This document shows, piece after piece, positions 3,007-60,166 of a stretch of DNA of 64,000 nt. How positions within the stretch are numbered: position 1 is the stretch's first letter; each line of letters begins with the position of its first letter. The DNA is taken from the NCBI RefSeq assembly GCF_025698545.1, contig NC_068567.1, forward strand, positions 4,092,001 to 4,156,000. Direction: 5' to 3'. Made by a program: the position numbers and the translations under genes. Source of the stretch: Gossypium raimondii (Eukaryota > Streptophyta > Magnoliopsida > Malvales > Malvaceae). Under the pieces are notes generated by a model. That model was not told where the DNA came from and made no database searches. It saw only the letters and a list, made by a program, of their open reading frames with translations.

Positions 3007-3195
3007 TGTACAAGCCCAAATTTACCCATTACAAACCCATCTTAAACAAACCCAAAATAACCCAATACCCAACCCATTTCCAGCAGACCCAAAACCTAAC
3101 ACCAACCCAATTAAACCCAAACCCAAACCCAAAACCTAGCCCAATACAAAACCCTAGCAGCCCAACTAAACTTTTCAGCAAAAAACAAAAAAAAA

Positions 3196-3218
3196 CCCTA
3201 GGTGCGTCGCACCTAGGG
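3196..3218. repeat. 23-nt perfect palindrome inside the solo LTR
   Basis: CCCTAGGTGCG and its exact reverse complement flank a single T. The 11-bp GC-rich stem would form a tight hairpin in RNA or single-stranded DNA. It sits upstream of the TATA-like box of the LTR. Confidence 0.85.
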
Positions 3219-5475: not shown

Positions 5476-5811
5476 AATCCATGTTATCCGAGTTTTTTTT
5501 AGGATCGTATTTTAAATATTTCTAAAGTTTTCAGTTTTTCGACACTAAGACATTAAGTAATCAACTAGGTACCAATTTTGGGCGTATCGAGGGTGCTAAT
5601 CCTTCCTCGTGCGTAACCGACTCCCGAACCCATTTTTTTGAATTTCGTGGACCAAAATCGTTGTTTTAATAAAATTAAATTGTTTATTAAAAACAACCGC
5701 TTTGCAAGGTGATCCAATAACACCTTATAAAAAAGGATTGGTGGCGACTCCCGTTTTCATTTTCAAAACCCAAGTCGACCTCGTTTTTCAATAAAAAAAT
5801 GGTGTCAACAA

Positions 5812-6563: not shown

Positions 6564-6620
6564 GCTCGTGGCGAGCTTTGGCAAAGATGACGTTGTGGAA
6601 ATATGAGTCAAGGTGGAGAT

Positions 6621-7047
6621 TAGTTAAGTATGACTCCTATTTTCAGTCAAATTTGAGAAATAATCTTTTAGTTAAACTCTATTTATTTGTTTCAGTCAAA
6701 CACTGATTAGTTTAGATTATTTTATTATTATTTGACATATAAATTTAGCCTATAAATAGGTTCTTTTACAACCTTAGAAAATACACCCATTAGAGATTAG
6801 AACTCATAACACATTTAGAGAATTTTGTATTTACGCTTTGAGGGTTCTTTATTTTCGGGTTTTTAGGGTTTAATTTTATCTCCATCTTTTGTACTCTTCG
6901 TTCTTTTGCCATTATAATAAAATTATCTTTGCCCGTAATTTTTTATCCTCTTTGGAGGAGTTTTTCCACGTTAAATTTGTGTGTTCAATTTCTCAATTTA
7001 TTCCGCTATTTTTGTTACTTGTTGCTTAATCGGGTCGATCCCTAACA
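6621..7047 (+). repeat. 3' LTR of the copia element
   Basis: 427-bp partner of the 5' LTR, preceded by the polypurine tract AAGGTGGAGA (6610-6619) and ending CCTAACA. Differences from the 5' LTR include a small insertion in the first bases and scattered substitutions. Confidence 0.92.
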
Positions 7048-7435
7048 ATATATACACACACAAAAAAAATTGATGGATGTAATAAAATGTGCATATTAAA
7101 ATAAAAGTGTATACAAAATATCAAAATAAAGTTTTAGTTGAGTGGTAAATTTAAGGTTTTACTAATCTAATTGACAACAGTTCAGATATTGATTTATGCA
7201 TATTTTATTGGTTTTAAAATAAAAAATAACTCGAGTAATACAACTTGTTGTAATTACGAGAAGATATTTTATAAAATCTCTAATTAAATTGATGCTTGGT
7301 TGACTTGTGATATTAACTCGGTGAGGCGCTTAAATAATAGTAAATATAGATATAAATATAAATAATTGATGCAAGTAATTTTCTTAACTAAGTTGGTGAC
7401 GTGATTGAAGACGACACAAACTCAATAAAAACTTA
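7048..7435. other. Intergenic DNA, continuation of the duplicated upstream tract
   Basis: This stretch has no gene. It parallels 18780-19100 upstream of callose synthase gene A, sharing 'aattgatggaggtaataaaa'-like strings, a gagtggtaaattta string and a cttaaataatagtaa string. Together with 890-1860 it shows the hairpin pseudogene arose from a segmental duplicate of the gene A region. Confidence 0.6.
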
Positions 7436-7650
7436 AAATAGATAATATATAGTTTAAAAAGTCGAACTCTAGAAACATATCGTACCAAATTCATTAGGAA
7501 GTTACCTTCATTTGGAAATTTAAAGCTAGATGAGTTCTGAATGAATAATTTACAATACAACCACTTGAGCTAAAACAATTAGGACTTTCAAATGTTAAAT
7601 GTAATTAATATGTATTACACAAATTATTAATTTAAGACCACTTGTGATCA
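7436..7650 (+). repeat. ~215-bp direct repeat, left copy
   Basis: This segment is repeated at 10213-10432 with high identity; shared strings include GAACTCTAGAAACATA and TTAGGACTTTCAAATGTTAA. The two copies bracket the Del/Tekay-like LTR. They are far too long for a target-site duplication. The distal part also recurs inverted at 13025-13186 as the outer end of the hairpin. Confidence 0.85.
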
Positions 7651-10212
7651 AACAATTTCAAATCATTTTATTTTCACTTCTCATTTCTCAACAATAGCTA
7701 TTTCAATTAGCTTTTCTTTACTTATATTTTTACATCATCTTATACTACCAAACCATTTCACGAATTATATCATTATCTATTTCTTGAACCCCTGGTTCAT
7801 ACATTTCATTTCCATATCTCAATTTAATATCTTATTTCGATTCATATTAAAGATCAGTCAATAAAATTTATATTATCAAAATTATTCATTTACCCCTATT
7901 AACTTAACTTGGACCTTAGCAGATACACGGATCCAACCAAACACACCAGAATGGCACCCAGTGCCTCATCGGATAGTTCGAAGCAACAAAGTGACACACA
8001 GTGTCTCATCGGCCAAGCCGAAGTAAGTTGGTACCCAGTACCTCATCGAATCTATCCGAAGTAACAGTATGACACCCAGTGTCTCATCGACTCAAGGTCG
8101 AAGTATCCCTGAACACTTCCAATCCTATGGCATGCCAACTATATCCGACTCAGCCCGACTAGTTAATAGGGTATTCAAATCATTTTTCTATTTCAAATTC
8201 ACTTTCAATTCAATCACAATTCAATTCAGATTCACTTCCCACTTTCAAATCAATATACAATTCAATAACAATACATATTTCATATGTTCACATATAATCA
8301 TACTTTGATTCAATTCAAACCACTTTTCAATTAATACACAATTCACATATTCACATATCTTCAAATCTCATATCTCGATTTTCAATTCACATATCAATTC
8401 ACAATTCACATATTCACACAAAACCATAATTTAATTTACTTTTATTCAATTCATATTTTAATTCAACTTTCCAACCAAATTCAAATCACAAATTATTTTT
8501 CATTCAATATACATTTCAATACCACATTAATTCTTTTAATTCAAATCATATCACTAGAAATTTCCATTCAATTCACATACAATTCAATATCGATATTCAC
8601 CTTATTTTTATTTACTAAACATATTATTCAAAATTCAACAATTGCTATTAATAAATTCAATACCAATACGTATTTATCATTTAATTCAATCGTGATACTT
8701 ACCTCAATTTCCTTATCATGTATATTAATTTAAAATTTAACAATTAATAATTAAATTCGAATTATGGTAATACTAACCGAAATTTCTCTCGAGTCACTCC
8801 TTGTTCACCTTCTCCTTTCCTTTCTCGGACAATGACTCTTGCACGACATTAGCTACGTAATTAAACAATTAAAAATCATTAATACACAATTTCATTAAAA
8901 TATTTCTATTTATACCTAAACTTTACATAAATTCTAATTTAATCCCTTATTAATACTAATTTTATTTTCTCAATCTAACTTCATATTCTATCTTAATTCT
9001 TACTATAAACTCATTTTAACTCTTCATTTTCACCATAAATTCCTAATTTCGAAATTCTCTCAATTTAGTCCCTATTAATTCAAAGCCTATAATTTATTTT
9101 ACAAATCAATCTTTTACTTACTTCTAACTTGAAATTCAATCAATTTAACCCCTAATTCTTTCATTTGTTCAACATATTCAATGTCTAGAAATATAATAAC
9201 TTCCCAAATTTCAACATAAATCCGATAATACTTTGCTCTAGGATGCTAAAAACTCAAAAATTATAAGAAAATGACTTAATTTAACTTACCAATTGAACTT
9301 GAAACCTCAAAACCTCAATTTTCCCTTTTCTTTCTTTCTTCTCTTTCTTTCCTTCTTTCCTTCTCTGTTTCGTTTGCCTATTCTGGTTCTATTCCCTTTT
9401 TCTATCTTTTATTTCTTTTATTTAATTAGTTTAATATAATAACAATAAAATAATAATATAATATTACTTACTTAAATAATAAGTAAATATATAATAATTA
9501 CTAATATATATATATATTTTATTTTTCCACATGTCATCATATAAACAATGCATTTGTTAACAATTTTGTTTATTTGAAATATAATAATATAAAATAATTA
9601 ATATAATTTACAATATAATAAAATAATAATATACTTTTAAAAAAATCTCAGATTTTTATCATGCATATGCCCCTCATTTATGGGACTTGGCATATTTATC
9701 TATTTAGTCCTTATAACTTTTCTTTAATCTATAATTAAACTTTTATCTCTATTGCAATTTAATCCTTTTCATAATTAACCTCAATTTAGACAAATTCACT
9801 TAATTAAAACCTAATTAACTACACAACTAACTTCGTAAATATTTATAATAAATATTTATGAATCCGATTATCAAACGGAGTCTCGGAATATTTTTTAATT
9901 TTGTCCTTTTTAATCAATTAACCATCGAAACGTTAAAATTTCTTAACGAAACTTTAATACTACCCTAATAATACTCCGTAAATATTTATAAAAATATTTA
10001 CGGCTCAGTTTATAATATCGAGGTCTCGATGCCTCGCTTTTTGACCCAATTTACCTAATAATTTTTTTTAAATCACAAAATTCACTCGTTCAAAAATATT
10101 TCTAAAATCACGCTTAACTTATAATTATTAATTAATAAAATTTTATAACTTTTTATAGAATTTAGTGATCTCAAATCACTATTTTGAAACTACTGAAAAT
10201 TAGGCTGTTACA
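7651..10212 (-). mobile_element. Del/Tekay-like gypsy LTR, minus orientation
   Basis: Read on the minus strand, the segment starts TGTAACAGCCTAATTTTCAG at 10212, the typical start of Del/Tekay chromovirus LTRs in cotton as I remember them. It contains the recurrent 'cacccagtgcctcatcgg' motif (about 7953-8100) and a pyrimidine-rich tract at 9328-9370. No gag-pol coding is present in the 2.6 kb, so it is a solo LTR or LTR fragment. The left boundary is not sharp; I place it where similarity between the flanking direct repeats ends. Confidence 0.7.
7953..8104. repeat. Four imperfect ~45-bp tandem motifs
   Basis: The motif (g/t)rcacccagtgycTCATCGg...CGAAG occurs four times in succession, beginning near 7953, 7993, 8030 and 8070. 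It lies within the Del/Tekay-like LTR. Confidence 0.75.
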
Positions 10213-10432
10213 AAATAGACAGTATATAATTAAAAGTCAGAACTCTAGAAACATACTGTACCAAATTTAGTAGGAAGTTACCTTCATTTGGAAATTTAAA
10301 GCTAGATGAGTTCTGAATGAATAATTTACAATACAACCACTTGAGCTAAAACAATTAGGACTTTCAAATGTTAAATGTAATTAATACGTATTACACAAAT
10401 TATTAATTTAAGATCACTTGTGATCAAACAGT
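10213..10432 (+). repeat. ~215-bp direct repeat, right copy, start of the inverted-repeat locus
   Basis: Right-hand partner of 7436-7650. It begins immediately after the LTR end (10212). From about 10261 it is also the outer part of the left hairpin arm, being the reverse complement of 13025-13186. Confidence 0.85.
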
Positions 10433-10507
10433 ATATTAAGACGAACACATTGACAATCCTACTCAACTTACTCGTATCATATTTGCATTTCCTGCAGTTT
10501 TGGTGCC

Positions 10508-12074
10508 ATCCCGACCCTGTAACCGGCTTTCACTAGAAGGCGAAGGGTACAACATAATCCCTGTCCACAATCTCGATGCCAGTCATCCCTGCGTTCGGTA
10601 CCCTGAAGTACGCGCTGTCTTATTATCCTTGCGCGCCTTGGGTAACCTCAGGGAGCCACCATACCACACATGGCATCCTTCTTCCATGGACCTCCTCGAT
10701 TGGTTGGGACTATTCTTCGGTTTCCAACACGACAACGTAAAGAACCAAAGGGAACACCTTGTTCTCCACTTGGCTCATGCCCATATGCGCCTCTCTGACA
10801 CCGGTTGACAACAATGGAACCTTCCAAGCCATAGTCCTCCGCGAGTTCCGGCGTAAGCTACTCGAAAACTACACTAACTGGTGTTCTTACCTGGGGAAGG
10901 CATCCAACGTTGACAACTTGGAGTCTGATACTCGTAGAGAGTTGCTTTACGTTGGACTGTATTTATTGATATGGGGAGAATCCGCGAATTTGAGGTTCAT
11001 GCCTGAATGCATCTGCTACATTTTTCATCACATGGCCATGGAACAGAACAAAATCCAAGAAGATTGCATTGATGAAGACACGGGACGACCATGGATACCA
11101 TCGATATCTGGGGAAAACGCGTTTCTAAACGGCGTTGTAAAGCCAATATATGATACGATCAAGGCCGAGGTGGCGAAAAGAAAAAATGGAACCGCCCCGC
11201 ATGATACGTGGAGGAACTATGATGATTTCAACGAGTACTTTTGGAGCAAGAGTTGTTTTCATACTCTCAACTGGCCACTTGATTTCAACAGTAAGTTTAC
11301 AAGCGAAAGGAAAACTGGGTTTGTTGAACGAAGGACGTTTTGGAACGTTTTCTTTTGGGGAATGAGTTGCTACGTGCTCTTGATCTGGCTACGGACTTAT
11401 ATGATGCGCTGGATAACCGGCTCCGGTATAAAATATGCAAGAATGAGTATAGGCGTTGTGCTGTGATTGAAACATATGATTGTGTCAAGTACTTGATGCT
11501 TCATAAACTAATCAAAAGCGATACCGAGGAGCATTCCATTCTCAAAGCCTTGTTTCGGGAAATTGATCATTATATCGAGACCGAGAAGTTGACTAAGACA
11601 CTTAGAATGATTGCACTGCTTCAAATCCATTCCAAGTTGATAAAACTTGTTGAGCTGTTGCTTGAACCAAACAAGAGTGTGAATGAGATTGCCAATGCTA
11701 TGCAGTCACTTTATGCATTTGTTGTTCCTTACCTTTCAAAGCAAATACAATGGACCAGTTGAGGGAATATGGACTGGCTCCGAAGAGTCGATTCGCCATG
11801 GTGAGTTGGCTATTCAAGAACGCAGTTGAGTCGCTGAATCCTAGTAACAAGGACTTCTATATGCAGGTTAAGCGCTTGCATACAATTCTTACCACCAGGG
11901 ACTCGATGCATACCATTCCTGTTAATAACGAGGCAAGGCGTCGACTCGCTTTCTTTAGTAACTCACTCTTTATGAAAATGCCTCGAGCTCCTCAAGTGAA
12001 GAAGATGATAGCTTTCAGTGTCCTTACCCCTTTCAACGATGAAGATGTGTTGTACAGCGAAGAAACACTCAAAA
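10508..12074 (+). pseudogene. Callose synthase pseudogene: left hairpin arm plus loop
   Basis: It starts at the position matching the gene A start codon, but ATGTCCCGA of gene A reads ATCCCGA here, destroying the ATG. Similarity to gene A residues 1-283 follows, with a 2-bp frameshifting loss near 10797 (CTCTCTGACACCGG where gene A has CTCTCTATGCCACCGG). At 11349 the sequence jumps about 1.15 kb ahead in gene coordinates, to the part matching gene A 22183-22908. The second part contains another frameshift near 11745. In that part the residues match gene B and not gene A (ALDLATDLYD, LREYGLAPKSRFAM, APQVKKMIAF). It ends at 12074, where an inverted copy of the 5' part begins. It cannot encode an enzyme. 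Confidence 0.93.
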
Positions 12075-12950
12075 CAGCATCACCCATAGCCTGTCGAAGC
12101 TTCTGAAAACGTTCCAAAACGTCCTTCGTTCAACGAACCCAGTTTTCCTTTCGCTTGTAAACTTACTGTTGAAATCAAGTGGCCAGTTGAGAGTATGAAA
12201 ACAACTCTTACTCCAAAAATACTCGTTGAAATCATCATAGTTCCTCCACGTATCATGCGGGGCGGTTCCATTTTTGCTTTTCGCCACCTCGGCCTTGATC
12301 GTATCATATATTGGCTTTACAACGCCGTTTAGAAACGCGTTTTCCCCAGATATCGATGGTATCCATGGTCGTCCCGTGTCTTCATCAATGTAATCTTCTA
12401 GGATTTTGTTCAGTTCCATGGCCATGTGATGAAAAATGTAGCAGATGCATTCAGGCATGAACCTCAAATTCGCGGATTCTCCCCATATCAATAAATACAG
12501 TCCAACATAAAGCAACTCTCTACGAGTATCAGACTCCAAGTTGTCAACGTTGGATGCCTTCCCCAGGTAAGAACACCAGTTAGTGTAGTTTTTGAGTAGC
12601 TTACGCAGGAACTCGCGGAGGACTATGGCTTGGAAGGTTCCATTGTTGTCAACCGGTGTCAGAGAGGCGCATATAGGCATTAGCCAAGTGGTGAACAAGG
12701 TGTTCCCTTTGGTTCTTTACATTGTCGTGTTGGAAACCGAAGAATAGTCCCAACCAATCGAGGAGGTCCATGGAAGAAGGATGCCATGTGTGGTATGGTG
12801 GCTCCCTGAGGTTACCCAAGGCGCGCAAGGTTAATAAGACAGCGCGTACTTCAGGGTACCGAACGCAGGGATGACTGGCATCGAGATTGTGGACAGGGAA
12901 TATGTTGTACCCTTCGCCTTCTAGTGAAAGCCGGTTACAGGGTCGGGATG
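12075..12950 (-). pseudogene. Callose synthase pseudogene: right hairpin arm
   Basis: On the minus strand this is a second copy of the 5' coding part, ending in RSFDRLWVMLF, slightly beyond the point where the left arm breaks. It carries the same lost start codon (CATCCCGACC at 12941-12950) and the same 2-bp frameshift (near 12660) as the left arm. It also shares substitutions that distinguish both arms from gene A. The inverted duplication therefore copied a gene that was already dead, or the arms have since been homogenised. Confidence 0.92.
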
Positions 12951-13186
12951 GCACCAAAACTGCAGGAAATGCAAATATGATACGAGTAAGTCGAGTAGGA
13001 TTGTCAATGTGTTCGTCTTAATAAATTGTTTGATCACAAGTGATCTTAAATTAATAATTTGTGTAATACGTATTAATTACATTTAACATTTGAAAGTCCT
13101 AATTGTTTTAGCTCAAGTGGTTGTAACTTGTTCATTCAGAACTCTTCTAGCTTTAAATATTCGAATATCAAAGTAACTAAATTTGT

Positions 13187-14600
13187 AGAAATCATGCTTT
13201 AGGTATTGTGGCACCCCAAAATCAGCTGGGATGGACCAACCTAAAACTGGAATGTCACATTAGCCACTTATGTGGCTCTTCACGCAAAACACCAGTCACA
13301 CCATGCAAATACATACATAACAAACAATCATCAAGTAAAAATAGGCATACATATCTTGGAATAAATTTTTTTACACTAGATTATACATTAACATACTCTG
13401 GCATTCAATCCGATTATCTATGCTTACATGCATTTCTAAAGTCCCAATTTAATCTACTCAACATGTCAAATTTCAATATAAGGCAATTTTTATGTGTATA
13501 TTAGGTCCATACCTTACCATTTAGTCATTTTACATTTTTCCGAGCATTCAACAAGTCATTTAAGCATCTATAACCGCAAATCACTAGGACACATGCACGC
13601 TAATCAATATATAACTTAACCATTCATCTAGCATCATTCATGCAACAATCCAAACAATAAAAGCACCCAAAAACTAGTTATAAAAGTCCTTAATCGATCC
13701 ATGGAATATCCATTTACAAACTAAACTAAAACTAAAGTATAATCCCTAAAAATGATTCCACATTGCCATCTTTTATTTTTCAAGAAAACCATCTCACATA
13801 CACAATTAAATTGTTTTGCGTTGAGATCACAAACTTGCTTACTTCATCACTCCACACAAGCTATTTCTCTACCAAAAAAAAAAACACAAGAGAGTGTGAA
13901 ATTAAACAAGCTCAGTGAGTGCTCAAGATACTACAATAAACCACAATATCAAGGGTTAAGAGCAAGACTAGATAGCACATAACACTTATCACCATTAATC
14001 ATTTAATCATGTTGATACATTGGCATCTTGTCATTATGAAATATGTATAACAATACAACACTTCGGATACTTGGATCTCCATTACACCAATTACTCATAG
14101 AGTCTAACATGTTCCAAGTAAGTGTGGCATTAAGCTATCACTCTCTAACATACCAAACAAGTCCAAATGAATGGAGCTTAGCTCTACATTCTTTTATCCC
14201 TCCAACATGTCCAAATATCAAAACGCATATATGAATACTCAAATCCTATGATATGCTAAATAGATCCAATCATTTCAAGAGATCCCAAAGCCAATATATC
14301 CACATTACACATTCATTTTCTGGTTTATGCATGCACACTTATACTTATCACATGTTCATGTAATGCACTTTCAAGTTTAATCACTTTGTTCATTGAGCCA
14401 CATACACTTTCATATCAGATGTGCATTAAACCAACATATCTATAGGCATATTTTGACATATTCACATCCATTTCTTTAACATATCACATGGACATCTTAT
14501 CACAATTCATCATCATTTGCAAAATATTATAGCTCAAGGAAGAATCACTTAACTTTTAATTTTTTTAAATTTACCCAAGATTCTAACTCCATGTAATAAA
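13187..14600 (+). mobile_element. Probable LTR-type repeat fragment
   Basis: At 13207 similarity to the hairpin flank gives way to TGTGGCACCCCAAAATCAGC, resembling the first bases of many plant gypsy LTRs (TGTNNCACCCCAAAATC). About 1.4 kb of A/C-rich non-coding DNA follows, with CAT-rich strings. I could not find the 3' end, a target duplication or coding sequence, so boundaries and class are tentative. Confidence 0.35.
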
Positions 14601-15138: not shown

Positions 15139-15560
15139 ATGTCTCAACCCTGTTAGCAGTCATTTCCATCGGAAGACGAAACATACAACATAATCTCTGT
15201 AAACAATCTCCAATCCCCATATGCACGTGTCGTCATGTCGTCCATACGTGCTGTCAGTGACCTCCGAAAGCCGCCATGCCACCGATGCCTTGCTTCCATG
15301 GACCTCCTCGATTGGTTGGGACTGTTCTTTGGTTTCCAATGTGATAACGTAAAGAATAACCAATGGGAACACCTTGTTCTCTACTCGGCCAACGGCCATA
15401 TACGTCTCTCTTTGCCACCAGTCGACAACATTGGAACCTTTCAAGCTGTAGTCCTCCATGAATTCCACCATAAGCTACTCAAAAACTACACTAGCTGGTG
15501 TCTTACGCCGGCAGGGCATCCAACGTTGACAGATTCGATTATGATACTCGTAGAGAGTAT
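15139..15560 (+). pseudogene. Diverged callose synthase 5' fragment
   Basis: From ATGTCTCAACCC the sequence matches the start of gene B (PPPEDEPYNII region, then SSLRAVGDLRKPP and MDLLDWLGLFFGFQ). A stop occurs at codon 6 and frameshifts occur further on; similarity ends around the ESDTRRELL region near 15560. It is clearly more diverged than the hairpin arms, with a small insertion (KNNQWEHL for KNQREHL). It is an older, separate duplicate and has no downstream catalytic part. Confidence 0.88.
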
Positions 15561-16649
15561 GATGCTTGTTAACTTATCAATTTATTACCATCAACATTCA
15601 ATTAAAATAGAATCGTAAAAAAACTCATAAGATTTCAATCTTTAAAAATATGTTGCTCCACAAGATTAATCTTCAAATATAGATCGTATACGTCCATAAT
15701 ATCATTTAAGTCTTGGCTCGACTATTTTGATTTCAAAATATTGCTTACTCCACAAATACAAGTTACGAATTCTAAACAATGCTAAGTGTCGTTGTAATTT
15801 TTCGTGCCATTACTCTCATAACAATTTCATTACAATTAACTCTTTCAAGGTTGAACAAGATTTTCATATTTAGAGCACAAATCTAGTTTCACAAAGCAAC
15901 ATTTAATTCATGAGGATCTAAATCTCATCAAATCAATTACTCTTAATATAAGAACACAAAAGATTAAGACAAACTCATATTTTCTTGGATATATTAGTAT
16001 GCAAGGTAAGAATCTTGTTTGATCCAATCTCATTTCCAATTATAATTATAAGACTGATTGCACAAGATTCTTAAAAGATACAGTAAAAATCAAACTTTTC
16101 AATTTTAAAATTTCAGTCCTAACTCAAACCATAATTGTTAAATCTTGTTGGTTAAATTATGCTGCTAATATTGTATTATGCATAAAGTTGTTAATTTTAT
16201 CCATGTTCTCCAATTGGATTATTCTAGTATTTTAATCTATCAAATTTTAAAATTTCAAGATTGACTTAAACTAACTATTAAATTCATTAGTTAACTTTTT
16301 GTGAGTAACATGCGAAATAATAGTCTCACATGGATTATACATGTGGAAATATGTTTATCGCGTCAAATTTTGAAATTAATATAACTTAATAAATTTAATA
16401 GATACAATTCGATAAGTATTACAATTTTGAAATTCAAAAGTACAAGGATTAAAAATTACGAAATTACAAGTATAAGAACTAAATGGATAATTTAAGCATA
16501 ATAAAAGACTAAGAGTAGAATCTAATTTACTATTTTTATTTTTATAAACTTACCAAAACAAAACAAATGAAGGGCAATTAATTGTCTTACAAGTATAAAT
16601 GTAATGTAAGCACAAGTAATATATAGTTATATGTATATGTTTAGGTAAT
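15561..16649. other. AT-rich intergenic DNA, nothing recognised
   Basis: About 1.1 kb of low-complexity AT-rich sequence with no open frame of interest, no repeat partner in the window that I could find, and no RNA gene. Confidence 0.5.
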
Positions 16650-20187: not shown

Positions 20188-23100
20188 ATGTCCCGACCCT
20201 GTAACCGGCTTTCACTAGAAGGCGAAGGGTACAACATAATCCCTGTTCACAATCTCGATGCCAGTCATCCGTGCGTTCGGTACCCTGAAGTACGCGCTGT
20301 CTTATTATCCTTGCGCGCCTTGGGTAACCTCAGGGAGCCACCATACCACACATGGCATCCTTCTTCCATGGACCTCCTCGATTGGTTGGGACTATTCTTT
20401 GGTTTCCAACACGATAACGTAAAGAACCAAAGGGAACACCTTGTTCTCCACTTGGCTAATGCCCATATGCGCCTCTCTATGCCACCGGTTGACAACAATG
20501 GAACCTTCCAAGCCATAGTCCTCCGCGAATTCCGGCGTAAGCTACTCGAAAACTACACTAACTGGTGTTCTTACCTGGGGAAGGCATCCAACGTTGACAA
20601 CTTGGAGTCTGATACTCGTAGAGAGTTGCTTTACGTTGGACTGTATTTATTGATATGGGGAGAATCCGCAAATTTGAGGTTCATGCCCGAATGCCTCTGC
20701 TACATTTTTCATCACATGGCCATGGAACTGAACAAAATCCTAGAAGATTACATTGATGAAGACACGGGACGGTCATGGATACCATCGATATCTGGGGAAA
20801 ACGCGTTTCTAAACCGCGTTGTAAAGCCAATATATGATACGATCGAGGCCGAGGTGGCGAAAAGCAAAAATGGAACCGCCCCGCATGATACGTGGAGGAA
20901 CTATGATGATTTCAACGAGTACTTTTGGAGCAAAAGTTGTTTTCATACTCTCAACTGGCCACTTGATTTCAACAATAAGTTTACAAGCGAAAGGAAAACT
21001 GGGTTTGTTGAACGAAGGACGTTTTGGAACGTTTACAGAAGCTTCAACAGGCTATGGGTGATGCTGTTTCTTTTCCTTCACGTAATGGTAATCTTGGCCT
21101 GGGAGGAGAAGAAGTATCCATGGCTGGCTTTGGATAACAAGGATGTTAAGGTTCGAGTTTTATCATTGTTCATCACTTGGAGTGGGATGAGGCTTTTCCA
21201 TGCTTTACTTGAACCAGCTATGGAGTTTAGCCGTGTTTCGAGACACACGTCGCGACTGGTCCTTAGGATGGTGCTACGGATTTTGGTTGCTGCAGCCTGG
21301 ACTGGCGCATTTGTGTTTTGTTACACAAGGATTTGGGTGCAAAGGAACCACGATAAGCATTGGTCTAATGAGGCTAACCAAAGGGTAACTTTTTTTCTAG
21401 GGCTTGCATTTCTTTATGGGTTACCTGAACTGGCGGAATTGGTGTTGTTTTTCCTTCCTTGTATTTGCCTGAATTCGAAAGTATTTGACCTGCTATCATG
21501 GTGGTTCTATGGTGACTGTTACATCGGTCAAGGATTGAGGGAAGGTCTGGTTGATAGAATCAAGTATGTCCTATTCTGGGTTTTGGTGTTAGGTACAAAA
21601 TTTACCGTCAGTTACTTCTTCCAGATCAAGCCCATGATTAGCACAACAAAACAATTGTTGGATTCAACAATTGCAGACTATGAGTGGGACTGGCAAGCCC
21701 TATTTAGTGTCAGCAACAAGTTCACTATTGGGTTGTTGTGGTTGCCTGTGGTGTTGATTTACTTGGCTGATACTCAGGTTTGGTACTCATTCTATTCTCC
21801 CTTTGTGGGGGCTGCCATGGGGTTGCTGCAACTGTTGGGTGAAATTCGAAACATCGAGCAGCTGAGATGGAGGTTTCGGTTCTTTGCTACTGCCATTCAA
21901 TTCAATTTGCTGCCACAAGAGGAAATAATGATCACTGGAGGTTCTTTAAGGGAAAAACTGTGTGAAGCCATTCATCAGGTGAAGGTGAGATGTGGGCTGC
22001 AGCGGCCTTTCAAAATGGTCGAACTCGAATCGAACCTGGTTAAGGCTAACGAGTTTGCTTTAATATGGAATGAAATAGTTACCACTTTTAGGGAAGAAGA
22101 TATCATTTCTGATGAAGAGGTTGGGCTACTACAGTTGCCTCCGAATTCATGGGAGATCAGGGTCATTCGTTGGCCATGTTTTCTTTTGGGGAATGAGTTG
22201 CTACGCTCTCTTAATCTGGCAATGGACTTCTACGATGAGCCGGATAACTGGCTCTGGTATAAAATATGCAAGAATGAGTATAGGCGTTGTGCTGTGATTG
22301 AAACATATGATTGTGTCAAGTACTTGATGCTTCATAAACTAATCAAAAGCAGTACCGAGGAGCATTCCATTCTCAAAGCCTTGTTTCAGGAAATCGATCA
22401 TTCTATCGAGATTGAAAAGTTCACTAAGACATTTAGAATGATTGCACTGCTTCAAATCCATTCCAGGTTGATAAAACTTGTTGAGCTGCTACTTGAACCA
22501 AACAAGAATGTGAATGAGATTGCTAATGCTATGCAGTCACTTTATGAAATTGTTGTTCCTTACCTTTTCAAAGAAAAGAGGACAATGGACCAATTGAGGG
22601 AAGATGGATTGGCTCCCAAGAGTCGAACCACCATGGCAGGATTGCTATTCGAGAACGCAGTTGAGTCGCAGGATCCTAGTAATAAGGACTTCTATATGCA
22701 GGTTAAGCGCTTGCATACAATTCTTACCACCAGGGACTCCATGCATTCCATTCCTGTTAATAACGAGGCAAGGCGTCGACTTGCTTTCTTTAGTAACTCA
22801 CTCTTTATGAAAATGCCTCGAGCTCCTCGAGTGGAGGAGATGATAGCTTTCAGTGTCCTTACCCCTTTCAACGATGAAGCTGTGTTGTACAGCAAAAAAA
22901 CACTCAAAACTAAGAACGAGGATGGGATTTCTATCCTGTATTATTTGCAGACCATTTATGATGATGAGTGGAAGAACTTCATCGAAAGAATGCGTAGAGA
23001 GGGAATGGTGACAGCAGATGAAATATGGACAACCAAGTTAAGAGATTTAAGGCTTTGGGCATCTTATAGAGGCCAGACATTTGCACGCACGGTCAGAGGC

Positions 23101-25335
23101 ATGATGTACTATTATCGAGCTCTACAGCTGCTAGCTTTTCTCGATTCTTCATCTGAGACGGATATTACCGTAACAAAAGAGGAAGAAGGTATTGCTCTGA
23201 TGAAGTATACCTATGTTGTTTCATGTCAGAAGTATTGGGAACATAAGGCCATAGGAGACCCTCGTGCTGAGGAAATCATTGATCTTTTGAAACATAATGA
23301 ATCCCTTCGGATGGCCTATGTTGATCAGGTTTCAACAGAGAGCGACGAGAAGGAATATTACTCGGTTCTCGTTAAGTACGACCGGCAATTACAACGGGAG
23401 GTGGAGATATATCGAATCAAGTTGCCTGGTCCAATGAACATTGGAGAAGGCAAACCAGAGAATCAAAACCATGGCATTGTCTTCACTCGTGGTGATGCAG
23501 TTCAAACTATTGATATGAACCAAGACAACTATTTCGAGGAAGCACTAAAAATCCGTAACCTGTTGGAAGAATTCAAGCACCATCATGGAATCCATAGACC
23601 AACTATCTTGGGAGTTAGAGAACATATTTTCAGTGGCTCTGTTTCATCAGTTGCTTGGTTTATGTCAGCACAGGAAACGAGTTTTGTTACCTTATTTCAA
23701 CGTCTCTTTGCTAATCCGCTGAAAATCCGAATGCATTACGGCCATCCCGATATGTTCGATAGGCTTTGGTTCATGACTCGTGGTGGCCTTAGTAAAGCCT
23801 CCAAAGTGATTAATATCAGTGAGGACATTTTTGCCGGCTTCAACTGTACTTTGAGAGGGGGCAGTGTCACACACCATGAATACATTCAAGTGGGCAAAGG
23901 TCGAGACCTTGGGTTGAATCAAATATCAACCTTTGAAGCCAAGATAGCTTGTGGGAGTGGGGAACAATTCCTCAGCAGAGATGTTTACAGGTTGGGTCAA
24001 AGACTTGATTTTTTCAGGATGTTATCATTCTTTCACACGACAATTGGATATTTTTTCAATACAACAGTGATCGTCCTTTCTGTCTATGGATTCCTATGGG
24101 GTCAACTTTATCTGGCTCTCAGTGGTGTCGAGAATTCCGTTCTAGGGAACGATACCAACAGCAAGAAAGCACTGAGCGCTGTTATCAATCAAGAACTCAT
24201 CATCCAGTTTGGTCTCTTTATGACACTTCCAGCAATACTCGAGAGCTCAGTCGAGAGTGGTTTCCTTGAAGCAATTTGGGAATTCTTGGTAATGCAGCTC
24301 CAGCTTTCAACTGTTTTCTACACGTTCTCAATGGGAACGCGTGTACATTTCTTTGGTCGGACTGTCCTTCACGGAGGTGCAAAGTATCGACAAACCGGGC
24401 GTAATTTCGTCGTGCAACACACAAGTTTCGCAGAGAATTACAGATTGTACGCACGCAGCCATTTCATAAAGGCCATTGAGTTCGGATTGATTCTCATGGT
24501 TTATGCAACATACACCCCATCAGCCAAGGTCACATTTTTTTACATAGACATGTCACTCACATGTTGGCTGCTAGTTGTCTCATGGATATTTGCTCCCTTC
24601 CTATTCAATCCTTCGGGTTTTGATTGGCTAAAGACTGTAGACGACTTCGATGATTTCATGAACTGGATTTGGTACCGCGGCAGCATATTTGCAAAGGCTA
24701 CAGAAAGCTGGGAAAGTTGGTGGTACGAGGAGCAGCACCATTTACTCACAACCAGCCTATGGGGAAAGCTACTGGAAATCATTTTGAACCTACGTTTCTT
24801 CTTTTTCCAATATGGAATTGTATACCATCTGGGAATTTCAGGCCAAAGTGGGAGTGTTTTCGTTTACTTGTGGTCTTGGATCTTCATATTCGCAGCATTC
24901 GGAATCTATCTAACGATGTCGTATGTTCGGGACAACTACGGGGCAAAAAAGCATATATATGTTCGGCTGGCTAAATTCCTTTTGATGATACTTGGAATAC
25001 TTCTTGGTATTGCTCTGAGACAGTTCACAGCCTTCAAATATGTTGATGTTTTCACCAGCCTGTTGGCTCTTGTTCCTACTGGTTGGGGACTTATATCCAT
25101 AGCTCAAGTATTTCAACCCCTTCTTCGCCATACCAGACTGTGGGACTCTGTGGTTTCCTTGGCTCGATTCTATGAGATGATGTTTGGAGTCATAGTGATG
25201 GGTCCAGTGGCAGTTCTATCATGGATGCCTGGATTCCAATCAATGCAAACAAGGATTCTATTTAATGATGCATTTAGCAAAGGCCTGCAAATGTTCAAGA
25301 TTATTACAGAGAAAGTACATCAAAAGGATGTCTAA
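20188..25335 (+). CDS. CALS11-like: Callose synthase (1,3-beta-glucan synthase), gene A
   Basis: A single open frame of 1715 residues encodes a callose synthase, the plasma-membrane enzyme that polymerises UDP-glucose into 1,3-beta-glucan at cell plates, pollen walls, plasmodesmata and wound sites. The N-terminal FKS1-type domain includes RRELLYVGLYLLIWGESANLRFMPEC (about 144-169). A first membrane cluster (about 288-560) precedes a long cytosolic catalytic loop containing LRDLRLWASYRGQTFARTVRGMMYY. A second membrane cluster fills about 1285-1695. The RXTG motif linked to UDP-glucose binding is RQTG at 1401-1404. Residues resemble Arabidopsis CalS11/GSL1 more than CalS12/GSL5, from memory. 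There are no introns, and the Ser-rich loop usually found near residue 990 is missing, explaining the length below the usual ~1770. The start fits the conserved N-terminus and the loss of the same ATG in the hairpin copies. Confidence 0.95.
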   Translation: MSRPCNRLSLEGEGYNIIPVHNLDASHPCVRYPEVRAVLLSLRALGNLREPPYHTWHPSSMDLLDWLGLFFGFQHDNVKNQREHLVLHLANAHMRLSMPPVDNNGTFQAIVLREFRRKLLENYTNWCSYLGKASNVDNLESDTRRELLYVGLYLLIWGESANLRFMPECLCYIFHHMAMELNKILEDYIDEDTGRSWIPSISGENAFLNRVVKPIYDTIEAEVAKSKNGTAPHDTWRNYDDFNEYFWSKSCFHTLNWPLDFNNKFTSERKTGFVERRTFWNVYRSFNRLWVMLFLFLHVMVILAWEEKKYPWLALDNKDVKVRVLSLFITWSGMRLFHALLEPAMEFSRVSRHTSRLVLRMVLRILVAAAWTGAFVFCYTRIWVQRNHDKHWSNEANQRVTFFLGLAFLYGLPELAELVLFFLPCICLNSKVFDLLSWWFYGDCYIGQGLREGLVDRIKYVLFWVLVLGTKFTVSYFFQIKPMISTTKQLLDSTIADYEWDWQALFSVSNKFTIGLLWLPVVLIYLADTQVWYSFYSPFVGAAMGLLQLLGEIRNIEQLRWRFRFFATAIQFNLLPQEEIMITGGSLREKLCEAIHQVKVRCGLQRPFKMVELESNLVKANEFALIWNEIVTTFREEDIISDEEVGLLQLPPNSWEIRVIRWPCFLLGNELLRSLNLAMDFYDEPDNWLWYKICKNEYRRCAVIETYDCVKYLMLHKLIKSSTEEHSILKALFQEIDHSIEIEKFTKTFRMIALLQIHSRLIKLVELLLEPNKNVNEIANAMQSLYEIVVPYLFKEKRTMDQLREDGLAPKSRTTMAGLLFENAVESQDPSNKDFYMQVKRLHTILTTRDSMHSIPVNNEARRRLAFFSNSLFMKMPRAPRVEEMIAFSVLTPFNDEAVLYSKKTLKTKNEDGISILYYLQTIYDDEWKNFIERMRREGMVTADEIWTTKLRDLRLWASYRGQTFARTVRGMMYYYRALQLLAFLDSSSETDITVTKEEEGIALMKYTYVVSCQKYWEHKAIGDPRAEEIIDLLKHNESLRMAYVDQVSTESDEKEYYSVLVKYDRQLQREVEIYRIKLPGPMNIGEGKPENQNHGIVFTRGDAVQTIDMNQDNYFEEALKIRNLLEEFKHHHGIHRPTILGVREHIFSGSVSSVAWFMSAQETSFVTLFQRLFANPLKIRMHYGHPDMFDRLWFMTRGGLSKASKVINISEDIFAGFNCTLRGGSVTHHEYIQVGKGRDLGLNQISTFEAKIACGSGEQFLSRDVYRLGQRLDFFRMLSFFHTTIGYFFNTTVIVLSVYGFLWGQLYLALSGVENSVLGNDTNSKKALSAVINQELIIQFGLFMTLPAILESSVESGFLEAIWEFLVMQLQLSTVFYTFSMGTRVHFFGRTVLHGGAKYRQTGRNFVVQHTSFAENYRLYARSHFIKAIEFGLILMVYATYTPSAKVTFFYIDMSLTCWLLVVSWIFAPFLFNPSGFDWLKTVDDFDDFMNWIWYRGSIFAKATESWESWWYEEQHHLLTTSLWGKLLEIILNLRFFFFQYGIVYHLGISGQSGSVFVYLWSWIFIFAAFGIYLTMSYVRDNYGAKKHIYVRLAKFLLMILGILLGIALRQFTAFKYVDVFTSLLALVPTGWGLISIAQVFQPLLRHTRLWDSVVSLARFYEMMFGVIVMGPVAVLSWMPGFQSMQTRILFNDAFSKGLQMFKIITEKVHQKDV

Positions 25336-55015: not shown

Positions 55016-58000
55016 CTATTGATGTACTTTGTGTGTGATAATCTTGAACATTTGCAGGCCTTTGCTAAATGCATCATTAAATAGGATCCTTGTTTGCATT
55101 GATTGGAATCCAGGCATCCATGATAAAACTGCCACTGGACCCATCACTATGACTCCAAACATTATCTCATAGTATCGAGCCAAGGAAACCACAGAGTCCC
55201 ACAGTCTGGTATGCCGAAGAAGGGGTTGAAATACTTGAGCTATGGATATAAGTCCCCAACCAGTAGGAACAAGAGCCAACAGGCTGGTGAAAACATCAAC
55301 ATATTTGAAGGCTGTGAACTGTCTCAGAGCAATAACAAGAAGTATTCCAAGTATCATCAAAAGGAATTTAGCCAGCCAAACATATATATGCTTTTTTGCC
55401 CCGTAGTTGTCCCGAACATACGACATCGTTAGATAGATTCCGAATGCTGCGAATATGAAGATCCAAGACCACAAGTAAACGAAAACACTCCCACTTTGGC
55501 CTGAAATTCCCAGATGGTATACAATTCCATATTGGAAAAAGAAGAAACGTAGGTTCAAAATGATTTCCAGTAGCCTTCCCCATAGGCTGGTTGTGACTAA
55601 ATGGTGCTGCTCCTTGTACCACCAACTTTCCCAGCTTTCTGTAGCCTCTGCAAATATGCTGCCGCGTTGCCAAATCCAGTTCATGAAATTATCAAAGTCG
55701 TCTACGGTCTTTAGCCAATCGAAACCCGAAGGATTGAATAGGAAGGGAGCAAATATCCATGAGAGAACTAGCAGCCAACATGTGACTGACATGTCTATGT
55801 AAAAAAATGTGACCTTGGCTGATGGGGTGTATGTTGCATAAACCATGAGAATCAATCCGAACTCAATGGCCTTTATGAAATGGCTGCGTGCATACAATCT
55901 GTAATTCTCTGTGAAACTTGTGTGTTGTACGACGAAATTACGCCCGGTTTGTCGATACTTTGCACCTCCATGAAGGATGGTCCGACCAAAGAAATGTACA
56001 CGCGTTCCCATTGAGAATGTGTAGAAAACAATTGAAAGCTGGAGCTGCATAACCAAGAATTCCCAAATGGCTTCAAGGAAACCGTTCTCGACGTAGCTCT
56101 CGAGTATTGCTGGAAGTGTGGTAAAGAGACCAAACTGGATGATGAGGTCTTGATTGATAACAGAGCTCAGTGCCTTCTTGCTGTTGTTATTGTACCCTAG
56201 AATGGAATTCTCGACACCACTGAGAGCTAGATAAAGTTGACCCCACAGTGATCCATAGACAGAAAGGATGATCACTGTTGTATTGAAGAAATATCCAATT
56301 GTTGTGTGAAAGAATGATAACATCCTGAAAAAATCAAGTCTTTGACCCAACCTGTAAACATCTCTGCTGAGGAATTGTTCACCACTCCCACAAGCTATCT
56401 TCGCTTCAAAGGTTGATATTTGATTCAACCCGAGGTCTCGTCCTTTGCCAACTTGAATGTATTCATGGTGTGTGACACTGCCCCCTCGCAAAGTACAGTT
56501 GAAGCCGGCAAAAATGTCCTCACTGATATTAATCACTTTGGAGGCTTTACTAAGGCCGCCACGAGTCATGAACCAAAGCCTATCGAACACATCGGGATGG
56601 CCGTAATGCATTCGGATTTTCAGCGGATTTGCAAAGAGACGTTGAAATAAGGTAACAAAACTCGTTTCCTGTGCTGACATAAACCAAGCAACTGACGAAA
56701 CAGAGCCACTGAAAATATGTTCTCTAACTCCCAAGATAGTTGGTCTATGGATTCCATGATGGTGCTTGAATTCTTCCAACAGGTTACGGATTTTTAGTGC
56801 TTCCTCAAAATAGTTGTCTTGGTTCATATCAATAGTTTGAACTGCATCACCACGAGTGAAGACAATGCCATGGTTTTGATTCTCGGGTTTGCCTTCTCCA
56901 ATGGTCATTGGACCAGGCAACTTGATTCGATATATCTCCACCTCCCGTTGTAATTGCTGCTCATACTTAATGAGAACCGAGTAATATTCCTTCTCATCCC
57001 TCCCTGTTGAAACTTGATCAACATAGGCCATCCGAAGGGCTTCATTGTGTTTCAAAAGATCAATGATTTCCTCAGCACGAGGGTCCCCTATGGCCTTATG
57101 TTCCCAATACTTCTGACATGAAACAACATATGTATACTTCATCAAAGCAATACCTTCTTCCTCTTTTGTTATGGTAATATCCGTCTCCGTTGAAGAATCA
57201 AGAAAAGCTAGCAGCAGTAGAGCTCGATAATAGTACATCATGCCTCTGACCGTGCGTGCAAATGTCTGGCCTCTATAAGATGCCCAAAGCCTTAAATCTC
57301 TTAACTTGGTTGTCCATATTTCATCTGCTGTCACCATTCCCTCTCTACGCATTCTTTCGATGAAGTTCTTCCACTCATCATCATAAATGGTCTGCAAATA
57401 ATACAGGATGGAAATCCCATCTTCGTTCTTAGTTTCGAGTGTTTCTTTGCTGTACAACACATCTTCATCATTGAAAGGGGTAAGGACACTGAAAGCTATC
57501 ATCTTCTTCACTTGAGGAGCTCGGGGCATTTTCATAAAGAGTGAGTTACTAAAGAAAGCGAGTCGACGCCTTGCCTCGTTATTAACAGGAATGGTATGCA
57601 TCGAGTCCCTGGTGGTAAGAATTGTATGCAAGCGCTTAACCTGCAAATAGAAGTCCTTGTTACTAGGATCCAGCCACTTAACTGCGTTCTTGAATAGCCA
57701 CCTCGCCATGGCGAATCGACTCTTGGGAGCCAGTCCATATTCCCTCAACTGGTCCATTGTCTTTGCTTTGAAAAGGTAAGGAACAACAATTGCATAAAGT
57801 GACTGCATAGCATTAGCAATCTCATTCACACTCGTGTTTGGTTCAAGCAACAGCTCAACAAGTTTTATCAACTTGGAATGGATTTGAAGCAGTGCAATCA
57901 TTCTAAATGTCTTAGTCAACTTCTCGGTCTTGATAGAATGATCAATTTCCCGAAACAAGGCTTTGAGAATGGAATGCTCCTCGGTATTGCTTTTGATTAG

Positions 58001-60166
58001 TTTATGAAGCATCAAGTACTTGACACAATCATATGTTTCAATCACAGCACAACGCCTATACTCATTCTTGCATATTTTATACCAGAGCCGGTTATCCGGC
58101 ACATCATATAAGTCCGTAGCCAGATCAAGAGCACGTAGCAACTCATTCCCCAAAAGAAAACAAGGCCAACGAATGACCCTGATTTCCCATGAATTCAGAG
58201 GCAACTGTAGTAGCTCAACCTCTTGATCAGATATGATATCTTCTTCCCTAAATGTGGTAACTATTTCATTCCATATTAAAGCAAACTTGTTAGCCTTAAC
58301 CTGGTTTGATTCGAGCTCGACCATTTTTAAAGGCCGCTGCAGCCCACATCTCACCTTCACCTGATGAATGGCTTCACACAGTTTTTCCCTTAAAGAACCT
58401 CCAGTGATCATTATTTCCTCTTGTGGCAGCAAATTGAATTGAATGGCAGTAGCAAAGAACCGAAACCTCCATCTCAGCTGCTCGATGTTTCGAATTTCAC
58501 CCAACAGTTGCAGCAACCCCATGGCAGCCCCCACAAAGGGAGAATAGAATGAGTACCAAACCTGAGTATCAGCCAAGTAAATCAACACCACAGGCAACCA
58601 CAACAACCCAATAGTGAACTTGTTGCTGACACTAAATAGGGCTTGCCAGTCCCACTCATAGTCTGCAATTGTTGAATCCAACAATTGTTTTGTTGTGCTA
58701 ATCATGGGCTTGATCTGGAAGAAGTAACTGACGGTAAATTTTGTACCTAACACCAAAACCCAGAATAGGACATACTTGATTCTATCAACCAGACCTTCCC
58801 TCAATCCTTGACCGATGTAACAGTCACCATAGAACCACCATGATAGCAGGTCAAATACTTTCGAATTCAGGCAAATACAAGGAAGGAAAAACAACACCAA
58901 TTCCGCCAGTTCAGGTAACCCATAAAGAAATGCAAGCCCTAGAAAAAAAGTTACCCTTTGGTTAGCCTCATTAGACCAATGCTTGTCGTGGTACCTTTGC
59001 ACCCAAATCCTTGTGTAACAAATCACAAAAGTGCCAGTCCATGCTGCAGCAACCAAAATCCTTAGCACCATCCTATGGACCAGTCCCCACGTATGTCTCG
59101 AAACACGACTAAACTCCATAGCTGGTTCAAGTAAAGCATGGAAAAGCCTCATTCCACTCCAAGTGATGAACAATGATAAAACTCGAACAGTAACATCCTT
59201 GTTATCCAAAGCCAGCCATGGAAACTTCTTCTCCTCCCAGGCCAAGATTACCATTATGTGAAGGAAGAGAAACAACATCACCCATAGCCTGTCGAAGCTT
59301 CTGTAGACGTTCCAAAACGTCCTTCGTTCAACAAACCCGGTTTTCCTTTCACTTGTAAACTTACTGTACAAATCAAGTGGCCAGTTGAGAGTATGAAAAC
59401 AACTCTTGCTCCAAAAGTACTCGTTGAAATCATCATAGTTCCTCCACGTATCATGGGGAGCGGCTCCATTTTTGCTTTTCGCTACCTCGGCCTTGATCGT
59501 ATCATATATTGGCTTTACAACGCGATTTAGAAACGCATTTTCCACTGATAGCGATGGTATCCATGGCCGTCCCGTGTCTTCATCAATGTAATCTTTTAGG
59601 ATTTTGTTCAATTCCATGGCCATGTGATGAAAAATGTAGCAGATGCATTCAGGCATGAACCTCAAATTCGCGGATTCTCCCCATATCAATAAATACAGTC
59701 CAACGTAAAGCAACTCTCTACGAGTATCAGAATCAAAACTGTCAACGTTGGATGCCTTCCCCAGGTAAGAACACCAGTTACTGTAGTTTTCGAGTAGCTT
59801 ACAGCGGAATTCGCGGACGACTATGACTTGGAAGGTTCCATTGTTGTCGGCCGGTGGCAGAGAGAGGCGCATATGGGCATTAGCCAAGTGGAGAACTAGG
59901 TGTTCCCTTTGGTTCTTTACGTTATCGTGTTGGAAACCAAAGAATAGTCCCAACCAATCGAGGAGGTCCATGGAAGGAACCCACGGGGAGAATGGTGGCT
60001 TTCGTAGGTCACCTACGGCGCGCAAGGATGATAGGACGACGTGTACTTGAGGGTACCGGAGGCCGGGATGATCTATGCGGAGATTATGCATGGGGATTAT
60101 ATTGTACGGTTCATCTTCTGGCGGTGGTAAGAACCGTGTGCGAGGCTGGTGACGTAGCAGAGACAT
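55016..60166 (-). CDS. CALS11-like: Callose synthase (1,3-beta-glucan synthase), gene B
   Basis: A single open frame of 1716 residues on the minus strand, paralogous to gene A along its length and likewise intronless. It should make 1,3-beta-glucan from UDP-glucose at the plasma membrane. The N-terminus (MSLLRHQPRTRFLPPPEDEP) differs from gene A but from MDLLDWLGLFFGFQ onward the two align almost gap-free. The two membrane clusters, the LRDLRLWASYRGQTF region and the RQTG motif are all intact. The Ser-rich loop near residue 990 is also missing. The last codons read VHQ-stop: a base change turns the Lys codon of gene A's KDV tail into TAG, removing three residues. A tract of about 650 bp is identical to gene A. 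The end of the LEA D-34 gene lies 452 bp upstream on the same strand. Confidence 0.95.
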   Translation of the reverse strand: MSLLRHQPRTRFLPPPEDEPYNIIPMHNLRIDHPGLRYPQVHVVLSSLRAVGDLRKPPFSPWVPSMDLLDWLGLFFGFQHDNVKNQREHLVLHLANAHMRLSLPPADNNGTFQVIVVREFRCKLLENYSNWCSYLGKASNVDSFDSDTRRELLYVGLYLLIWGESANLRFMPECICYIFHHMAMELNKILKDYIDEDTGRPWIPSLSVENAFLNRVVKPIYDTIKAEVAKSKNGAAPHDTWRNYDDFNEYFWSKSCFHTLNWPLDLYSKFTSERKTGFVERRTFWNVYRSFDRLWVMLFLFLHIMVILAWEEKKFPWLALDNKDVTVRVLSLFITWSGMRLFHALLEPAMEFSRVSRHTWGLVHRMVLRILVAAAWTGTFVICYTRIWVQRYHDKHWSNEANQRVTFFLGLAFLYGLPELAELVLFFLPCICLNSKVFDLLSWWFYGDCYIGQGLREGLVDRIKYVLFWVLVLGTKFTVSYFFQIKPMISTTKQLLDSTIADYEWDWQALFSVSNKFTIGLLWLPVVLIYLADTQVWYSFYSPFVGAAMGLLQLLGEIRNIEQLRWRFRFFATAIQFNLLPQEEIMITGGSLREKLCEAIHQVKVRCGLQRPLKMVELESNQVKANKFALIWNEIVTTFREEDIISDQEVELLQLPLNSWEIRVIRWPCFLLGNELLRALDLATDLYDVPDNRLWYKICKNEYRRCAVIETYDCVKYLMLHKLIKSNTEEHSILKALFREIDHSIKTEKLTKTFRMIALLQIHSKLIKLVELLLEPNTSVNEIANAMQSLYAIVVPYLFKAKTMDQLREYGLAPKSRFAMARWLFKNAVKWLDPSNKDFYLQVKRLHTILTTRDSMHTIPVNNEARRRLAFFSNSLFMKMPRAPQVKKMIAFSVLTPFNDEDVLYSKETLETKNEDGISILYYLQTIYDDEWKNFIERMRREGMVTADEIWTTKLRDLRLWASYRGQTFARTVRGMMYYYRALLLLAFLDSSTETDITITKEEEGIALMKYTYVVSCQKYWEHKAIGDPRAEEIIDLLKHNEALRMAYVDQVSTGRDEKEYYSVLIKYEQQLQREVEIYRIKLPGPMTIGEGKPENQNHGIVFTRGDAVQTIDMNQDNYFEEALKIRNLLEEFKHHHGIHRPTILGVREHIFSGSVSSVAWFMSAQETSFVTLFQRLFANPLKIRMHYGHPDVFDRLWFMTRGGLSKASKVINISEDIFAGFNCTLRGGSVTHHEYIQVGKGRDLGLNQISTFEAKIACGSGEQFLSRDVYRLGQRLDFFRMLSFFHTTIGYFFNTTVIILSVYGSLWGQLYLALSGVENSILGYNNNSKKALSSVINQDLIIQFGLFTTLPAILESYVENGFLEAIWEFLVMQLQLSIVFYTFSMGTRVHFFGRTILHGGAKYRQTGRNFVVQHTSFTENYRLYARSHFIKAIEFGLILMVYATYTPSAKVTFFYIDMSVTCWLLVLSWIFAPFLFNPSGFDWLKTVDDFDNFMNWIWQRGSIFAEATESWESWWYKEQHHLVTTSLWGRLLEIILNLRFFFFQYGIVYHLGISGQSGSVFVYLWSWIFIFAAFGIYLTMSYVRDNYGAKKHIYVWLAKFLLMILGILLVIALRQFTAFKYVDVFTSLLALVPTGWGLISIAQVFQPLLRHTRLWDSVVSLARYYEIMFGVIVMGPVAVLSWMPGFQSMQTRILFNDAFSKGLQMFKIITHKVHQ

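Follow-up and report, generated by a model that had tools for sequence, protein, structure and literature searches.

Does a cotton genome carry a natural hairpin locus that could turn small interfering RNAs (siRNAs) against the callose synthase genes lying beside it? The question is raised by an inverted repeat at 10276-13178 of a 64,000-nucleotide stretch of Gossypium raimondii DNA (C3:4092001-4156000; hereafter the window, whose numbering we use), which also holds two intact callose synthase genes, here called gene A and gene B. We find that the element is a structurally competent hairpin locus of a known kind. By its alignments, it is an inverted-duplicated pseudogene of the callose synthase 12 (CalS12)/GSL5 type, produced by a rearrangement with microhomology joints inside a local gene array of D-genome cotton. 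We give just under an even chance to the further proposal that this inverted pseudogene hairpin would be transcribed and diced into siRNAs, with possible action on genes A and B.

An earlier, sequence-only reading of the window had proposed two inverted arms of about 1.1 kb around a loop taken from the middle of a callose synthase gene, and both the alignment of the arms and the match of the loop to genes B and A bear this out (Table 1). The arms are 97.0% identical in inverted orientation over 1079 alignment columns, with a loop of about 0.75 kb between them, and differ at 25 of 1072 sites and in 7 gap columns. Their core, which comprises the part resembling a 5' untranslated region (5'UTR) and the coding part, differs at 17 of 907 sites (17 of 911 in a slightly wider alignment), while the outer ends show 8 differences at 161 sites, plus 7 gap columns. 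A repeat finder likewise returned an ungapped block pair, 10332-11352 and 12105-13125, at 98%, with a further 46-bp pair (87%) towards the outer ends. Thus, the arm identity of about 98% given earlier is right for the core and too high for the whole arms; the locus itself stands, although the borders first proposed for it, 10261 and 13186, lie 15 and 8 bp outside the arms. The segment 10212-10275 is also outside the inverted repeat, yet it is present in a third copy of the outer end, copy U. The inner ends are unequal, since the gene match of the left arm stops at window position 21034, inside gene A, and the right arm continues for another 33-35 bp. The loop contains stop codons in all three forward frames.

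Table 1 The hairpin locus and the features around it, in window coordinates.
Feature	Coordinates	Strand	Description
Left arm	10276..11352	+	Outer end, then 5'UTR-like and 5' coding sequence of a CalS12/GSL5-like pseudogene
Right arm	12105..13178	-	Inverted copy carrying the same two 2-bp deletions
Loop	11353..12071	+	Mid-gene callose synthase segment in left-arm orientation
Left-arm/loop joint	11347..11352	.	A few bases of microhomology (overlapping alignment ends)
Loop/right-arm joint	12072..12075	.	A few bases of microhomology (overlapping alignment ends)
Extra inner end of right arm	12072..12104	-	33-35 bp of gene sequence matching gene A 21035-21069
Outer non-coding end, left	10212..10441	+	Possibly the upstream region of the pseudogene
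Copy U	7435..7658	+	Third copy of the outer end; repeat, not gene sequence, comes next
Left high-copy repeat	7652..10213	+	Abuts the left side
Right high-copy repeat	13206..13900	+	Lies on the right side
Fragment C	15157..15618	+	Truncated callose synthase fragment, 80-83% to arms, A and B
Gene A	20188..25335	+	Intact callose synthase 12-like, 1715 amino acids; nearest relative of the arms
Gene B	55016..60166	-	Intact callose synthase 12-like, 1716 amino acids; nearest relative of the loop

The two parts of the unit have different nearest relatives. The left arm is 97.1% identical to gene A (20122-21034) and 91.3% to gene B, and the right arm, measured on 12072-13015, is 96.3% identical to gene A and 90.6% to gene B; the arms represent the first ~0.9 kb of gene A and a little of the sequence before its start codon. 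The loop (11347-12075), in contrast, is 97.0% identical to gene B (57432-58161) and 92.5% to gene A (22178-22910). These matches uphold the callose synthase origin claimed for arms and loop. Relative to gene A, both arms carry the same two 2-bp deletions, at ~10509/10510 and ~10795 in left-arm positions, the first of which removes the start codon. Consequently, either the sequence had become a pseudogene before it was duplicated, or later conversion has evened out the two arms.

An RNA crossing the whole unit is predicted to fold almost completely. The predicted fold of 10276-13178 has an energy of -2213.5 kcal/mol, against -595.5 to -738.4 kcal/mol for five stretches of the window of equal length; in it, 1051 of the 1077 left-arm bases pair with the right arm, and the longest unbroken helix measures 123 bp. 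The capacity for a long, near-perfect duplex that had been proposed is thus supported. Perfect pairing is predicted for 686 of the 1057 21-mers of the left arm, of which 353 are found exactly in gene A, 185 in gene B and 273 in neither; this agrees with the expectation that the duplex RNA would be homologous to both genes. A known microRNA or structured RNA was rejected as an identity for the locus, since 10200-13260 matched none of 4227 Rfam families at E <= 0.1.

The two putative targets are intact, as had been stated. Both have an open frame without internal stops and both carry the domains PF14288 (FKS1_dom1) and PF02364 (Glucan_synthase). The gene A protein has a match of 100% identity in a G. 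hirsutum D02 protein cluster; among the best 120 of 2942 matches, its nearest named relatives are callose synthase 12-like proteins of cotton and other Malvaceae. By these matches, genes A and B belong to the callose synthase 12/GSL5 clade. The ratio of nonsynonymous to synonymous divergence (dN/dS) between them is 0.32, which indicates purifying selection; with their open frames, this means that there are genes to silence. Fragment C, a third member of the array, is frame-shifted near 15501, and part of the 3' end of gene B is duplicated just downstream of that gene (54035-54369 against 54976-55306, 86%). A survey of cotton callose synthases reports no paralogous gene pair in G. raimondii (PMC8641485), and the close pair A/B would thus have gone uncounted there.

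The closest known system is GmIRCHS, the candidate for the soybean I allele, for which chalcone synthase (CHS) double-stranded RNA (dsRNA) is reported in the seed coat (PMC13051633). The soybean precedent had been cited in the sequence-only reading, and the resemblance proves to be one of close anatomy. Both loci are tail-to-tail inverted repeats of a pseudogene (pseudoCHS3 in soybean) within a clustered multigene family, with arms of 1,087 bp there and 1,077 bp here and with intact homologues as possible targets (PMC13051633). Like a GmIRCHS-type locus, the cotton element consists of a near-perfect inverted repeat of gene fragments with arms of hundreds of bp or more and a short spacer, and intact homologous genes have exact siRNA-length matches to its duplex. 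The two differ in that a DnaJ-gene promoter is attached in soybean (PMC13051633), whereas no foreign promoter was recognised here, and in that the soybean spacer is 78 bp (PMC13051633) and the cotton loop ~0.75 kb.

Other systems share some of these traits. The soybean i^i cluster CHS1-3-4/CHS4-3-1 is also an inverted family array, and its siRNAs are reported to act on CHS7 and CHS8, which are 81% similar to CHS4 (PMC6710647, PMC3804491); its arms, however, are identical multi-gene blocks of 10.91 kb separated by 5.71 kb (PMC6710647), rather than one broken gene end. Maize Tpd1 and other pollen hairpin RNA loci, which depend on DCL2 and yield 22-nt siRNAs, likewise have a long natural hairpin precursor and a protein-coding target, but Tpd1 belongs to a pollen drive, with sequenced 22-nt siRNAs and mapped cuts (PMC11390486). 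Inverted pseudogene pairs described in rice consist of two neighbouring copies with a foldable transcript, with duplexes of 185 and 155 bp against ~1,050 bp here (PMC2708354). In cotton itself, natural siRNAs from gene-matching dsRNA are reported to regulate GhMML3_A12, although there the dsRNA consists of the sense and antisense RNAs of a single locus, without an inverted repeat (PMC7227086). Among the open-licence papers listed, judged by titles and abstract openings, we found no endogenous callose synthase hairpin.

How unusual is the locus in its own genome? A search of the 750.8-Mb genome with the hairpin gave 18 candidates; each of them was scored, and none was a second copy of the whole unit; the arrangement was seen only here, and longer matches of the unit elsewhere (on C3, C4 and C13) are 70-73% identical. 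As a background, which is small, we looked for inverted repeats of at least 200 bp and at least 85% identity, at any spacing inside the piece, in 18 hand-spaced 10-kb pieces of C3 (180 kb) and in two 10-kb pieces beside the window. The 18 pieces contained none, and one of the two adjoining pieces held one. Since the window (at 45000-50479) and this adjoining piece have others, long inverted repeats as such are present in this neighbourhood, and the unusual point of 10276-13178 is its make-up from a host gene, not that it is a long inverted repeat.

The history of the locus can be partly read from its differences. The unequal inner ends and the microhomology joints fit either two tail-to-tail pseudogene copies that were later trimmed or template switching. 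When the core differences were placed with the help of gene A and outgroups, the left arm received 5, the right arm 12, the common stem 6 and gene A 12, with 3 unplaced; the imbalance between the arms has a binomial P of 0.14. Substitution rates in cotton are roughly 2.6-7e-9 per site per year, so that the 17 differences at 907 core sites would put the duplication at about 1.4-3.7 million years, a minimum age if the arms convert each other. Genes A and B seem to have duplicated before the A and D genomes diverged, because in a protein tree (without printed support values) gene A groups with a G. barbadense A02 protein and gene B with a G. arboreum protein. Synonymous divergence (dS) between A and B varies along the gene (0.25, 0.06, 0.13 and 0.09, with segment borders set at those of the hairpin), and this unevenness, with the combination of A-like arms and a B-like loop, points to past gene conversion in the array.

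In the mechanism that we propose, a transcript would start at either outer end, or read out of a flanking repeat, and then cross the loop; this read-through transcript would fold into a near-perfect hairpin of ~1.05 kb. Dicer-like enzymes cut long hairpins into siRNAs in plants, and here DCL4 and DCL2 would generate 21- and 22-nt siRNAs and DCL3 24-nt siRNAs. The products could target the 5' ~0.9 kb of both genes, gene A offering more exact matches than gene B, and could mark the hairpin locus itself by RNA-directed methylation. The first effect to expect is 24-nt siRNAs acting in cis; genes A and B would be affected in trans only under strong transcription of the hairpin. The chances that siRNAs would exceed background in some tissue are about even. 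The earlier suggestion that strand-symmetric reads would be the sign of such a hairpin does not hold: the report on maize pollen, where DCL2 acts on long hairpins, describes 28 hairpin loci that lead one to expect the siRNAs of a diced hairpin transcript to favour one genomic strand (PMC11390486). Strand-symmetric reads would rather suggest dsRNA made by an RNA-dependent RNA polymerase or by convergent transcription.

The most serious alternative, which we regard as a real possibility though short of an even chance, is that the locus is a silent relic: dead heterochromatic DNA between two repeats, with no transcript crossing the loop, background 24-nt siRNAs only, and neutral drift. Several observations speak for it and weigh against a transcribed hairpin. 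The locus is flanked on either side by repeats, which favour silence, and both arms lack a start codon and are frame-shifted. There is no sign of selection to keep the pairing, although the counts are small, and the outer ends have diverged faster than the core (8/161 against 17/911, Fisher P 0.04). Among rice pseudogenes, 145 of 11,956 are reported to have given antisense small RNAs in the library studied (PMC2708354). Nor was a clear promoter found at the outer ends. When their likeness to the region upstream of gene A was scored against 500 shuffles each, 30 shuffles reached the score of the left outer end, 8 that of the right and 15 that of copy U; among the controls, the figures were 476 for the region upstream of gene B, 418 for the reversed strand and 38 for the region upstream of fragment C, so that the fit to the gene A upstream region is no better than to that of fragment C. 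The likeness is suggestive only, and the outer end may be the upstream region of the parent gene.

The mutation pattern counts against the transcribed hairpin as well. The 17 core differences comprise 9 transitions and 8 transversions, and 3 or 6 of the 17 are compatible with wobble pairing, depending on which arm is transcribed first. C-to-T changes of the methylation type account for none of the 5 changes on the left branch, for 6 of the 12 on the right and for 7 of the 12 on the branch of gene A, so that the arms show no methylation signature, such changes being no commoner there than on the branch of gene A (again with small counts). In addition, for the rice hairpin pseudogene pair that is described, the parent gene had no small RNAs (PMC2708354).

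Other evidence sits poorly with complete silence. The arm core is still 98% alike. Plant inverted duplications can be strong sources of small RNAs, and about 39% of annotated Arabidopsis pseudogenes are reported to match at least one small RNA, mostly of 24 nt (PMC1820830). The rice study also describes 38 pseudogenes whose siRNAs could target the transcripts of their parent genes, as well as 2 inverted pseudogene pairs that form hairpins and have small RNAs (PMC2708354). The siRNAs reported for GhMML3 in cotton (PMC7227086) and the anatomical likeness to GmIRCHS, with its reported dsRNA (PMC13051633), also favour the transcribed hairpin.

A stronger version of the transcribed hairpin, contained within it, holds that the locus is a trans-silencer kept by selection, which would set the dosage of gene A, and less so of gene B, in one particular tissue or when a pathogen attacks. 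The greater number of perfectly paired 21-mers exact to A than to B fits this idea, and GmIRCHS (PMC13051633) and maize Tpd1 (PMC11390486) offer reported precedents. The two stretches in which A and B have diverged most (alignment codons 1-285 and 660-912; dS 0.25 and 0.13) are those that the hairpin covers, and because of this any silencing would be stronger on A than on B. However, the arms bear no signature of selection, and the purifying selection on A and B is what one would expect of genes in use. We therefore consider it unlikely that a lineage-specific silencer of this kind sets the dosage of PMR4/GSL5-type callose synthases in cotton, and equally unlikely that selection has kept one.

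That a transposon with long terminal inverted repeats (a Pack-MULE or fold-back element) captured the gene fragments is very improbable, even though the arms end in non-coding sequence with repeats at both borders. At the outer end of each arm, ~165 bp are low-copy, which argues against capture by a dispersed transposon. Among the 40 scored matches (of 165 candidates) to the stretch 7400-7720, only 3 cover the outer end, namely the two arms and copy U, and the remaining 37 cover the repeat beside U, with a single one extending ~30 bp into copy U itself; with the hairpin as query, where every candidate was scored, the outer end again had matches in this array only. These searches revealed no terminal inverted repeats of a dispersed family, the flanking repeats stop outside the arms, and no second copy of the unit was found among the 18 candidates.

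Copy U is 94.6% identical to 10212-10430. Over left-arm 10276-10430 it differs at 2 of 155 sites, against 8 of 161 between the outer ends of the two arms, and in its distal part at 7 of 62. The left repeat stops at ~10213 and both of its ends have dispersed copies (40 of 165 and 40 of 5551 candidates scored); these ends recur in the same order, 2.3-2.6 kb apart, at 9 other places, a comparison that covered the repeat outside 7721-9299. It is perhaps a solo long terminal repeat (LTR) or a short element. In the right repeat, most matches begin at ~13370-13390 (40 of 162 candidates scored), and the start at ~13206 is drawn from 4 short matches that are 72-79% identical.

An assembly or read-chimera artefact is as improbable as transposon capture. 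Inverted chimeras are a known class of error, but a chimera would copy an arm almost perfectly, whereas these arms differ at the sites and gap columns given above; the extra sequence on the right makes the arm ends asymmetric, the joints show microhomology, and the loop derives from a different region of the gene, for which the nearest relative is also different. Least probable of all, and rejected, is a truncated coding gene that makes a short protein from the left-arm open reading frame 10741-11463 (241 amino acids), because, despite its PF14288 (FKS1_dom1) match, the natural start codon is lost and the frame is broken upstream, none of 72 matches of 132-412 amino acids exceeds 75% identity to it (a test limited by 90% clustering and by gene-calling rules), and the nearest to the N-terminal 547 residues of gene A among the best 120 of 284, G. 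klotzschianum P0193 at 82%, follows the course of A and not the hairpin joint. The two protein searches give weak evidence that an annotated model of the hairpin is absent from other cottons.

Other repeats lie in and beside the window. The inverted repeat at 45000-50479 is a near-palindrome of ~5.5 kb, with two facing copies of ~2.7 kb that are 91-92% alike and ~53 bp between the innermost arms. It has many near-full-length copies elsewhere at 91-94% (40 of 760 candidates scored), which identifies it as a transposon pair; its open reading frame 46271-46747, which had no Pfam match, we take to be PIF/Harbinger-like. The repeats 1862-2284 and 6623-7048, 95.5% identical, are likely the LTRs of a retroelement. 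The stretch that holds them (1862-7048) is about 82% identical to pieces of 18308-19109 upstream of gene A, and part of it also matches a sampled piece elsewhere on C3. The inverted repeat beside the window, C3:4082001-4086457, has arms of 1554 and 1605 bp at 91% with a spacer of 1299 bp; it reaches the edge of the examined piece, contains one open frame of more than 120 codons, and showed no match to the window.

If siRNAs are made from the hairpin, the locus would be a natural RNA interference locus aimed at callose synthases, and a further GmIRCHS-like case from another gene family. Loss of GSL5/PMR4 in Arabidopsis changes disease resistance; should trans-silencing prove true, the hairpin would be a natural RNA interference switch on defence or pollen-wall callose. 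Long hairpins are regarded as raw material for silencing loci and young microRNA genes, and even if this one is silent, it illustrates how microhomology joints can turn members of a local gene array into a long hairpin.

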